Below are positions 19,323-37,438 of a DNA stretch of 64,000 bases, piece by piece. The notes beneath the pieces were generated by a model, which had not been told where the DNA came from, ran no database searches, and was given only the letters and a program-made list of their open reading frames with translations. Numbering within the stretch: the stretch's first letter is position 1; each line of letters opens with the position of its first letter. Source of the stretch: Vibrio pelagius (GTDB lineage Bacteria > Pseudomonadota > Gammaproteobacteria > Enterobacterales > Vibrionaceae); contig NZ_AP025503.1 of the NCBI RefSeq assembly GCF_024347575.1, positions 2,542,001 through 2,606,000 of the forward strand. The letters are read 5' to 3'. A program made the position numbers and the translations under genes.

Positions 19323-19592
19323 TTAGCGACGTAGACCTAGACGCTTGATAAGCTCTTGGTAACGACCAAGATCTTTACCTTTTAGGTAGTCTAGAAGCTT
19401 ACGACGGCTAGAAACCATACGTAGAAGACCACGACGGCTGTGGTGATCGCCTTTGTGAGCTTTGAAGTGACCTTGTAGGTGGTTGATAGAAGCAGTAAGT
19501 AGAGCTACTTGTACTTCTGGTGAACCTGTGTCGCCTTCAGAGCGCGCGTATTCTGCAACGATTGCTGCTTTAGTTTCTGCATTCAGAGACAT
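19323..19592 (-). CDS. rpsO: 30S ribosomal protein S15
   Basis: Primary 16S rRNA binding protein, 89 residues, the usual size. [32 protein letters not shown] is the diagnostic N-terminus; [26 protein letters not shown] is the rRNA-contact region. AGGAGA precedes the ATG. S15 is known in E. coli to repress its own translation through a leader pseudoknot; I did not resolve one here. Confidence 0.99.
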
Positions 19593-19728
19593 AATTCTCT
19601 CCTGATAAGAGTAGTTTGATATTTGTAGCAGCCAATCTCTGATTCAGCCGCTACGCGAGCCGTGGATTATAGGGAAGTTTGCCTAGTGGTGCAATAACAA
19701 TCTATCGCGATCTCACTGAACGAAAAAC

Positions 19729-26002: not shown

Positions 26003-26027
26003 AAAAAAAGGGCTCAAAGCCCAATTT
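26003..26027 (-). terminator. Terminator-like hairpin directly upstream of rimP
   Basis: Minus strand GGGCT, TTG, AGCCC followed by seven T. It lies 17 bases before the rimP start, in the path of readthrough from the tRNA genes, so it probably acts as an attenuator. Confidence 0.75.
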
Positions 26028-26074
26028 AAATTCCAAGCAAACATATCTATTAGCATTTACAAATGCTTAGATAA

Positions 26075-26105
26075 CAAAAAACCCCGTATAAGCCGGGGTT
26101 TTTGT
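26075..26105 (-). terminator. Terminator after the tRNA pair
   Basis: AAAAACCCCG, TATAAG-type loop, CCGGGGTTTTT: near-symmetric with A and T flanks. First of two successive terminators between tRNA-fMet and rimP. Confidence 0.85.
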
Positions 26106-26221
26106 TGCTGGACCCTTATATACTAAGCGCCTTCATAAAATGAGTTACTGCACTTAGTTCACAGTGAGGTTCACACTGTGCAAACTTGCTACCAATCAAG
26201 ACTAAATATAGCACTAAAAAT

Positions 26222-36175: not shown

Positions 36176-37021
36176 TCAAGCGATACCAAGAAACGTATTC
36201 ACCACTGTAAAATAGATCCACATCCCTGAAATATCGACAATAGAGGCGAGCACAGGGCTCACTAATACCGCAGGGTCGAGCTTGAGCAGACAAGCAACAA
36301 TTGGCAAACCGCCACCAAGTACCGTAGAAATCGTCACCTGAATAAACAGAGCAACCGCAATCGCAAATGCGATCATGTTAATGTCATAACCGCCCGTTGA
36401 CTGGTTTTCGCTAAACAGCAGAATACGGCCAACCATCACTACAGCAATCGCTCCAGCTAAGCAGATAGCCACTCGCAACTCTTTCCAAACTACGCTTAGC
36501 CATTGACGTTTTTTGAGTTCGCCCGTTGCCAAGGCTCGAATTACCAGAGTCGCAGCTTGTGTGCCCGTATTTCCCCCAGCAGCCGCAATTACAGGCATGT
36601 AAATCGCAAGTAAGACCAACTGGCTGAGAATATCCTCGTACTGGGCGATAATCAGGCCAGAAACGATCCCTAGCAGGGCTAGCGCGACAATCCAACCGAT
36701 ACGTTGCCTTACGTGGCTCATTACTCCAGTTGTGAGATACCCCTGTTGAGGTTCAACTTCAGAATAGATAAGTCCTAACTGGTGAGCTAAATGGCGAGAG
36801 CGTTTTTCATGCCCCTGTTCTTCTAACTCACTAAGTAGAGCTTGGATAACACTGAGAGAACACTGACCCAGTACCAAGACTGCGTCTTCCAATGGCATAC
36901 GATTAAGCAGGTCAACTTGCTGCTCACGCGTGTGCTGTTGAAAGGCTCTCGATACGGCCTGAATGTCTCGTTCAGTGTATAGAGCTTCAATAGATAAAAA
37001 AGTGTTGTTCATTACCGTCAT
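36176..37021 (-). CDS. MgtE-type divalent cation transporter without CBS domains
   Basis: 281 residues. The N-terminal 90 residues resemble a shortened MgtE N domain (helical repeats LLNRMPLEDAVLVLGQCS), and the C-terminal 170 carry five TM helices with the MgtE pore segment YMPVIAAAGGNTGTQAATLVIRALATGEL and the conserved LDPAVLVSPVLASIVDISG. The tandem CBS domains of full-length MgtE (about 450 residues), which gate it by Mg2+, are missing. Start at the ATG at 37021, with GGGAGA seven bases upstream. Mg2+ (or Co2+) transport is inferred from the family. A structured leader with a short peptide gene precedes it. Confidence 0.87.
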   Translation of the reverse strand: MTVMNNTFLSIEALYTERDIQAVSRAFQQHTREQQVDLLNRMPLEDAVLVLGQCSLSVIQALLSELEEQGHEKRSRHLAHQLGLIYSEVEPQQGYLTTGVMSHVRQRIGWIVALALLGIVSGLIIAQYEDILSQLVLLAIYMPVIAAAGGNTGTQAATLVIRALATGELKKRQWLSVVWKELRVAICLAGAIAVVMVGRILLFSENQSTGGYDINMIAFAIAVALFIQVTISTVLGGGLPIVACLLKLDPAVLVSPVLASIVDISGMWIYFTVVNTFLGIA

Positions 37022-37251
37022 GGCGAATCTCCCGATTGGCAAAGGTAACGACCATCAAAACAAGTAGCCTGCAGTGAGTACCTCACAAACATAAAGCGGT
37101 ATACATCAAGAGCGTATAACTCGATACATAAAGCATATAACTGAGCGCACCAAGAGCTGAAAGCACTGATGTGTCTACTTGTAGAGTCTAGAGTATGGAA
37201 AAGAATGAGGGGAAAACAAAGATACCCTACCTGAACGGCAGGACATGAGAT

Positions 37252-37306
37252 CAATACCGAGACAGGTTATTCTTCTCCCTTCAAACTAGGAGGATGGTCG
37301 GTATTG
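37252..37306 (-). promoter_or_regulatory. Stem enclosing the leader peptide of the MgtE-type gene
   Basis: CAATACCGA (37252-37260) and TCGGTATTG (37298-37306) are perfect 9-bp complements. In the minus-strand transcript the 5' arm falls in the first codons of the leader peptide and the 3' arm just after its stop. Translating ribosomes would prevent the stem from forming. Confidence 0.55.
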
Positions 37307-37311
37307 TTCAT
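37267..37311 (-). CDS. Leader peptide of the MgtE-type gene, 14 residues
   Basis: Encodes MNNTDHPPSLKGEE and stop. TTTGGAG lies seven bases before the ATG, a strong ribosome binding site, and about 245 bases of further leader lie between its stop and the transporter start. The Asp-His-Pro-Pro and Glu-Glu segments recall the proline/acidic leader peptide MgtL of Salmonella/E. coli mgtA, where low Mg2+ disturbs translation of such stretches. Not similar in sequence otherwise. Function here is inference. Confidence 0.5.
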   Translation of the reverse strand: MNNTDHPPSLKGEE

Positions 37312-37350
37312 AAAAATCTCCAAAATTACTGCCAATTTGACAGCGTGCGT

Positions 37351-37359
37351 AGTGTAGCA
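37351..37359 (-). promoter_or_regulatory. Possible extended -10 for the MgtE-type leader transcript
   Basis: Minus strand TGC then TACACT fits an extended -10 (TGnTATAAT with two changes). It would start transcription about 33 bases before the leader peptide. No good -35 at 17 bp. The remainder of 37022-37408 is untranslated leader; nothing else was recognised. Confidence 0.3.
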
Positions 37360-37408
37360 AGTCCTTACAAAATACTTGGTCAAATTCCTGTCAATAAATA
37401 GGGGTCAA

Positions 37409-37438
37409 TAAAAAAGGCATCCGTAGATGCCTTTTTAC
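37409..37438 (-). terminator. tyrS terminator
   Basis: AAAAAGGCATC, TACG, GATGCC followed by TTTTTT on the minus strand. Confidence 0.9.

Follow-up and report, generated by a model that had tools for sequence, protein, structure and literature searches.

Several enteric Mg2+ transporter genes, among them mgtA, mgtB and corA, are preceded by leader peptides thought to read Mg2+ through the stability of the ribosome that translates them (PMC11282234, PMC8092293 and PMC11552253, each in excerpt). MgtL, encoded in the mgtA leader of Salmonella and E. coli, carries the residues EPDP (excerpt of PMC11282234), while MgtQ, of the Salmonella mgtC-mgtB operon, has its acidic residues at D2 and E5 (excerpt of PMC8092293), and corL, in the corA leader of Salmonella and E. 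coli, is accompanied by alternative stems that hide a rut site (excerpt of PMC11552253). Elsewhere, Mg2+ control of Mg2+ transporter genes is exerted by the M-box (ykoK) riboswitch. For mgtE genes, the excerpt of PMC11109978 describes an orphan candidate, the mgtE motif, which it reports only in Thioalkalivibrio and for which it mentions no open reading frame (ORF). This motif is the nearest description among the literature matches listed, which leave most subscription journals outside and contain no account of an mgtE leader peptide such as that considered here.

The locus lies in a 64,000-nucleotide stretch of Vibrio pelagius DNA (contig NZ_AP025503.1, positions 2,542,001 to 2,606,000; the window), in which a short ORF with its own ribosome site occupies the 5' leader of a gene that is, by family, that of a Mg2+ transporter (Table 1). 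The transport role is putative, as it is assigned by family membership. The first-pass annotation had described a 14-residue ORF with a ribosome binding site ahead of a transporter without CBS domains, and both observations were borne out. PF01769 (MgtE, residues 142-273) is the sole Pfam match of the 281-residue protein, no CBS domain was found by Pfam search even at E values up to 10, and full-length MgtE from the PDB aligns with it from PDB residue 284 onward, beyond what we take to be the CBS region; the protein can thus be called CBS-less. The ATG at 37021, which aligned relatives share as the mgtE start, is most likely the start codon, and the TTG listed at 37042 merely opens the frame.

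The likeness to the enteric Mg2+ leader peptides noted in the first-pass annotation also stands, in that acidic and proline codons fall within the first eight. As in MgtL, a short ORF in a Mg2+ transporter leader is overlapped by alternative RNA stems and followed by a pyrimidine-rich region; unlike MgtL, its core is [DE]-x-P-P-S rather than E-P-D-P (by eye there is no likeness beyond acid/Pro character), the transporter is an MgtE rather than a P-type ATPase, and the stems differ. With corL it shares an ORF within one stem, a second hairpin with a pyrimidine-rich flank and alternative stems that hide this flank (excerpt of PMC11552253), but no sequence relation was seen. MgtQ is likewise a very short ORF with early acids (codons 2 and 5) and a transporter ribosome site in a hairpin (excerpt of PMC8092293); however, MgtQ is intergenic in an operon, whereas the ORF here is the first element of the leader, and release of the ribosome site is unsupported on average by folding of 36 leaders. 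The Thioalkalivibrio motif is also a structured element before mgtE, one stem of which has the Shine-Dalgarno sequence and start codon at its foot, and is set apart by its description in the excerpt of PMC11109978. By analogy, these comparisons suggest a leader that works like those of MgtL and CorL, yet is unrelated to MgtL.

Table 1. Features of the mgtE locus in window coordinates, in order of transcription.
Feature	Coordinates	Strand	Remarks
Terminator-like hairpin behind tyrS, AAAAAGGCATC-TACG-GATGCCTTTTT	37411..37436	-	Read by eye; absent from scan listing
Extended -10 promoter-like element, TTGCTACACT	37351..37360	-	Absent from sigma-70 consensus scan listing
P0 hairpin ahead of leader ribosome site	37328..37344	-	Stem covaries
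Shine-Dalgarno GGAG (37321-37318) and leader start codon	37309..37321	-	GGAG in 135/139 leaders
Leader ORF, MNNTDHPPSLKGEE, 14 residues	37267..37311	-	Conserved core D5-H6-P7-P8-S9; sequence and relatives
P1 5' strand, CAATACCGA	37298..37306	-	Codons 2-5; partner 37260-37252; 90.9% of alignment cells paired
L 5' strand, CGACCATC	37293..37300	-	Codons 4-7; shares CGA with P1
H 5' strand, GGAGAAGAAT	37269..37278	-	Last ORF codons
P1 3' strand, TCGGTATTG	37252..37260	-	Just beyond stop codon
P3 hairpin, CCTGCC-GTTCA-GGTAGG	37226..37242	-	Between H strands; covaries
P3 with C/U-rich, G-poor stretch, possible Rho-utilisation site	37187..37242	-	Composition
H 3' strand, ATTCTTTTCC	37197..37206	-	Pyrimidine-rich stretch ~60 nt past stop; covaries with ORF end
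L 3' strand, GATGGTCG	37049..37056	-	27 nt ahead of mgtE start
P6, CGTTACC / GGTAATG inside mgtE	37010..37050	-	Encloses ribosome site (AATC-GGGA-GATT) and start codon
CBS-less MgtE-type transporter gene, 281 aa	36176..37021	-	Start ATG 37021, stop 36176-36178

With a terminator-like hairpin behind tyrS and an extended -10 element at 37360-37351, the leader probably opens a transcript of its own. A TGnTA-type element is present in the leaders of 101 of 139 relatives. Judged from the position of the extended -10, the mRNA would start near 37344, for a leader of about 320 nt; the 380 bases first assigned to it are counted from where the tyrS terminator (37436-37411) ends and are to be shortened accordingly. 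An Rfam model search found no family at threshold in the leader, M-box included, in agreement with the first reading, which had recognised no Mg2+ riboswitch. Elsewhere in the window, the known S15 and rimP leader RNAs (19536-19655 and 26003-26134) are ordinary.

Among loci fetched by the MgtE protein alone, the D-[HY]-P-P core is found in 79 of 80, these being the best 80 of 90 confirmed, from named genomes, with many closely related. The sole exception (L104) has a possible D-S-P-P-N ORF, read by eye, which was left uncounted because it opens only from a CTG. A larger set of 163 extracted leaders, 139 of them distinct, was gathered by demanding an mgtE start motif, with twelve loci omitted (L008, L147, L151 and L166, whose mgtE start differs, and eight without the pattern). 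In the set of 139, D-[HY]-P-P is imposed by the search pattern and so invariant by construction, and 79 of 80 is the fair figure. Positions that the pattern leaves free are also informative: Ser9 is present in 137 of the 139, and codon 8 uses all four proline codons (CCT 91, CCG 28, CCC 14, CCA 6; n=139, third base unforced). The acidic codon may be GAC, GAT or GAA and stands at codon 5 or codon 4, a shift of 3 nt that keeps the frame, and the residue after it may be H, Y, F or I. A diverged Vibrio leader (L029) retains D-F-P-P-S though its flanking RNA motifs are gone. The C-terminal half is variable in sequence and in length (peptides of 11-19 residues), and at three loci the frame is shifted after Pro-Pro and the peptide ends early (MNNTDHPPVAG). 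The C-terminal Glu-Glu given in the first-pass annotation lies outside the conserved portion, as relatives end in Glu-Lys or quite otherwise and this end varies jointly with an RNA pairing. Because the letters of the Pro-Pro-Ser codons recur too (CC[CT]-CCN-AGT in 137/139 leaders and in 14/14 further leaders, Ser always being AGT), selection on the peptide itself is likely rather than proven, and RNA-level constraint or common descent could account for much of the conservation of the core.

The leader features are real and far from chance. Allowing one mismatch, the leader DNA pattern occurs in 177 of 296 Vibrionaceae genomes, against 1 for the reversed pattern. A sample of 394 genomes from across the order yielded it in 27, of which 24 belong to the genus of the window; three matches outside Vibrionaceae (L141-L143) have no adjacent mgtE and were discarded. 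An mgtE homologue lies downstream at all 30 loci found by pattern alone in other genera (L111-L140). Within the window's genus, 29 of 37 genomes have the CBS-less homologue, and the leader precedes all 29, with 27 recognised by the strict pattern and two as variants (L028, MNNTDHPPVAG; L029, MQNVDFPPSLNGIGNN). Odd matches of the strict pattern in G013, G034 (the second there) and G056 were taken as chance from their sequence. In G036 an intact leader stands ahead of an mgtE frame truncated to ~130 residues (L168), where the leader has outlived the gene, and in G159 ahead of an mgtE broken by a stop codon (L199). Three Shewanella genomes (L093, L097, L098) have a CBS-less mgtE of the Vibrio type with the leader MKTTDYPPSRKGEK; the two Shewanella transporters included in the tree described below nest among those of Vibrio, and horizontal transfer is probable.

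The perfect 9-bp stem reported in the first-pass annotation, here P1, is indeed present. The leader has other conserved pairings besides, and computed equilibria leave P1 in the minority, the mean pairing over 139 leaders being 0.60 for H and 0.54 for L against 0.14 for P1. During transcription, P1 would be the first to form. It has letters in common with L and crosses L as well as H; these pairings are therefore alternatives or form a pseudoknot, and the alternative structures thereby involve the ORF. The 3' strand of L reads GATGGTCG in 104 of 139 leaders and GGTGGTCG in 18, while six others differ and 11 were missed by the scan. Nearest to the gene, P6 is nearly invariant, with 97.0% of alignment cells paired over 44 leaders and a mean computed probability of 0.42. 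The spacer between GTTACC and the mgtE ribosome site tolerates insertions, as some clades carry an extra, often hairpin-like stretch there (L064, L066, L072, L115, L117, L119 and L120).

Covariation was assessed in an alignment of 44 leaders chosen from 79. Two structures were tested, with 93.0% and 94.6% of cells paired and 12 and 14 pairs changed on both sides; the covariation score was reached by 0 of 500 shuffles, a comparison that related sequences can win without structure. When the structure was slid by 1-3 columns, 33-60% of cells paired, and one slid control exceeded the 12 doubly changed pairs observed, with 13, but had 24 such cells against 58. The double changes sit in P0, P3 and H, with none in P1 or P6 in the 44 leaders; two in L come from Shewanella rows of unsure alignment. 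L and P6 are thus unproven by covariation, as they hardly vary. In Photobacterium-like leaders, a change of AAT to GAT at codon 3 accompanies one of TATTG to TATCG in the P1 partner. Cross-species swaps of strands gave -12.0 kcal/mol for cognate and -10.7 for swapped P1, and -14.6 against -12.3 for H; L showed no gain (-13.3 against -13.2), although its cognate strands exceeded shuffled partners (-13.3 against -8.2). In Photobacterium-like and Shewanella leaders, cognate P1 strands do no better than swapped ones; for H, swapped and shuffled partners are both stronger in the harveyi-like group, and in the g27-like group the cognate strands do not exceed shuffled ones.

Two possible outputs were considered, namely access to the mgtE ribosome site and termination by Rho. 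In 36 of the 139 leaders, folding with a ribosome-sized block gave a mean openness of the mgtE ribosome site of 0.52 with the block at the start, 0.53 at Pro-Pro and 0.45 at the stop, against 0.52 for the free leader. As the mean is left unchanged, the switch is not reproduced overall; only in the splendidus-like group, which includes the window, does a leader ribosome free the mgtE ribosome site in these foldings (9 of 36; 0.40 free, 0.55 at the start, 0.59 at Pro-Pro, 0.50 at the stop). The pyrimidine region opens slightly with the block at Pro-Pro or the stop (from 0.46 to 0.50-0.53). Between 60 and 100 nt past the stop, mean C is 0.26 and mean G 0.09 over 139 leaders, as would suit a Rho site; the excess of C over G in the presumed rut region is weak against background, since 9.5% of the 130-nt segments in the window match it.

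The first-pass annotation had reasoned that a transporter without CBS domains must be controlled from elsewhere. This argument fails, and with it the leader as compensation for CBS loss, because in three other families a leader of the same kind, with [DE]-I-P-P-S, stands before all 12 of 12 sister MgtE genes whose CBS region is retained. Eleven of these leaders were found by a filter and one separately (L208), so that the filter missed 1 of 12 true leaders; their starts include MEIDIPPS, MKKDIPPS, MENEIPPS, MESEIPPS and MLNDIPPS. The twelve sisters have 394-435 residues and 41-49% identity over the matched part, and align with L203 through its CBS region. L203 and L200 in turn align with solved MgtE structures through the CBS region; the Pfam CBS model gives no match on either. 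By the same filter, which is blind by design to NDSRRW peptides, none of 30 canonical MgtE genes has a [DE]-x-P-P-S leader; L226 and L228 gave no match and were dropped, and L212 (36% identity), which lies outside the 30, has no leader by the filter. One of the sister families also has a CBS-less homologue (L198), whose leader has MNDSDHPPS and which retains the mgtE-proximal RNA element; for its P1-like stem few shuffles were as good (0.03). Of the 11 DIPP-type leaders tested for such a stem, few shuffles were as good for L204 (0.02), L206 (0.01) and L210 (0.055), and the other eight are unsupported by the shuffle test. In the DIPP-type leaders L200-L207 and L209-L211, the transporter start codon lies between GGAC and GUCC, a possible small hairpin, and by eye the CCUCC of the Pro-Pro codons is complementary to the GGAGG ribosome site.

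A tree built from 62 membrane domains groups the leader-bearing transporters in a single clade of 33 members (support 100/99), within which the CBS-less and CBS-region branches are adjacent (supports 93/91 and 85/79). The tree is flagged for long branches, and the placement of the long-branch L212 and L234 is unreliable; no leader was found for these two or for L169, a second chromosome copy. A second leader type, M[DE][NG]DSR[RS]W, precedes two CBS-region Vibrio transporters of the clade (L030, L173). Its pattern has matches in 6 of 197 Vibrionaceae genomes, all six at 233-239 nt ahead of a longer mgtE that aligns with L203. All second-type leaders (L277-L282, L030 and L173) come from Vibrio and Photobacterium-like genomes, and each is followed at 203-239 nt by a sister MgtE with the CBS region. 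Peptides of the M[DE]NDSRRW type have acids at codons 2 and 4, without Pro-Pro. The feature common to the leaders found is an acidic residue at codon 4 or 5, mostly then x-Pro-Pro-Ser.

Comparison of relatives establishes the ORF and the conservation of its core, the link to one MgtE branch, and conserved RNA pairings overlapping the ORF. We infer leader translation, ribosome drop-off, Mg2+ as the signal, the direction of the response and its output, which would be either termination by Rho or control of how accessible the mgtE ribosome site is. The reading we favour, at a probability of roughly 0.55, is a leader-peptide attenuator that works in the manner of MgtL and CorL and serves one MgtE branch. 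A ribosome on the short ORF would meet the acidic residue and then x-Pro-Pro with about seven residues joined. At low Mg2+, or low ribosome stability generally, it would pause at the core and tend to fall off, and with ample Mg2+ it would complete the ORF; its progress would decide between P1 on the one hand and H and L on the other. The geometry of ribosome and stems is that of an attenuator: with Pro7 in the P site, a ribosome would lie over the 5' strands of both P1 and L, and at the stop codon over that of H. If mgtA and corA are a guide, mgtE expression would fall when the leader is translated to its end and rise upon drop-off. On the pattern of the excerpted accounts, completion would expose the pyrimidine region to Rho, while after an early drop-off H and L would conceal it; the other option would be release of the mgtE ribosome site (excerpt of PMC8092293). 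Mg2+ is a plausible signal, judged from the transporter family, the acidic/Pro core and the precedents. Against this reading, a single Asp ahead of Pro-Pro provides less of an acidic signal than EPDP does, and two acidic residues alone are insufficient according to the excerpt of PMC11282234.

An unlikely alternative is that the ribosome stalls at Pro7-Pro8 rather than falling off, and so reports EF-P activity or charged tRNA-Pro, with Mg2+ acting indirectly. A Pro-Pro stalling sensor of this sort has been proposed for mgtP. The retention of Pro-Pro in the DxPP leaders of four families would fit, as would the span of a ribosome at that point (about nt +3 to +35, including the 5' strands of P1 and L), but stalling leaves unexplained why an acidic residue is retained alongside and why the M[DE]NDSRRW leaders before sister transporters have acids and no prolines.

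The recurrence of CC[CT]-CCN-AGT as letters, with Ser9 always AGT, would also be expected if the CCUCC codons hide a ribosome site (GGGAG or GGAGG of the transporter, or the GGAG of the leader itself) and translation clears this mask, with the amino acids as a by-product. This is a quite improbable account. Complementarity of CCUCC to the GGAGG before the transporter in DIPP-type leaders (by eye) and the opening of the ribosome site in the splendidus-like group, by a ribosome at the start or Pro-Pro, speak for it; yet some leaders have CCCCC instead of CCTCC, the acid is retained as GAC, GAT and GAA outside the motif, and the ribosome site stays unopened when averaged over 36 leaders.

The near-invariant letters of H, L and P6 beside the mgtE start, together with the orphan motif in Thioalkalivibrio (excerpt of PMC11109978), could point to a riboswitch that binds Mg2+ or another ligand, to which the ORF would be incidental. 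This is very unlikely, as the ORF core persists where the L and P6 motifs are lost (L029 and the DIPP-type leaders) and the leader has no Rfam match. Even less probable is an arrest peptide, in which the DxPPS chain would bind a small molecule in the ribosome tunnel. The short core is strictly conserved, but with just 7-8 residues joined at Pro-Pro there would be little scope for recognition in the tunnel, and the (R/Q/H)-type arrest motif is absent: the RAPP-type motif, (R/Q/H)-(A/G/D)-(P/G/S)-(P/G), is C-terminal as excerpted in PMC10987492, whereas the core here, D-[HYF]-P-P or [DE]-I-P-P, lies near the N-terminus. That the ORF encodes a functional small protein while RNA pairing controls mgtE independently is scarcely credible, despite the conserved start, stop and Shine-Dalgarno sequence, given a variable C-terminal half (11-19 residues) and an ORF close before mgtE in 163/163 extracted leaders (for which an mgtE start motif was required) and 30/30 pattern-found loci.

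Under the attenuator reading, a wider proposal can be made tentatively, at slightly less than even odds: that an undescribed family of leader peptides ([DE]-x-P-P-S, with M[DE]NDSRRW in the sister branch) controls one branch of MgtE in marine gammaproteobacteria, with the ribosome as Mg2+ gauge as for MgtL. Such a family would have evolved separately and be older than the loss of the CBS gate, and in Vibrionaceae it would work through an RNA switch of ~300 nt extending to the start codon of the transporter. Were an unrelated family of peptides to serve MgtE in at least four bacterial families, ribosome-based reading of Mg2+ would seem to be general, and more than 150 natural leaders could be used to ask which early residues destabilise the ribosome. 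For Vibrionaceae, where the leader matches no Rfam family, it offers a candidate for post-transcriptional control of a Mg2+ transporter.
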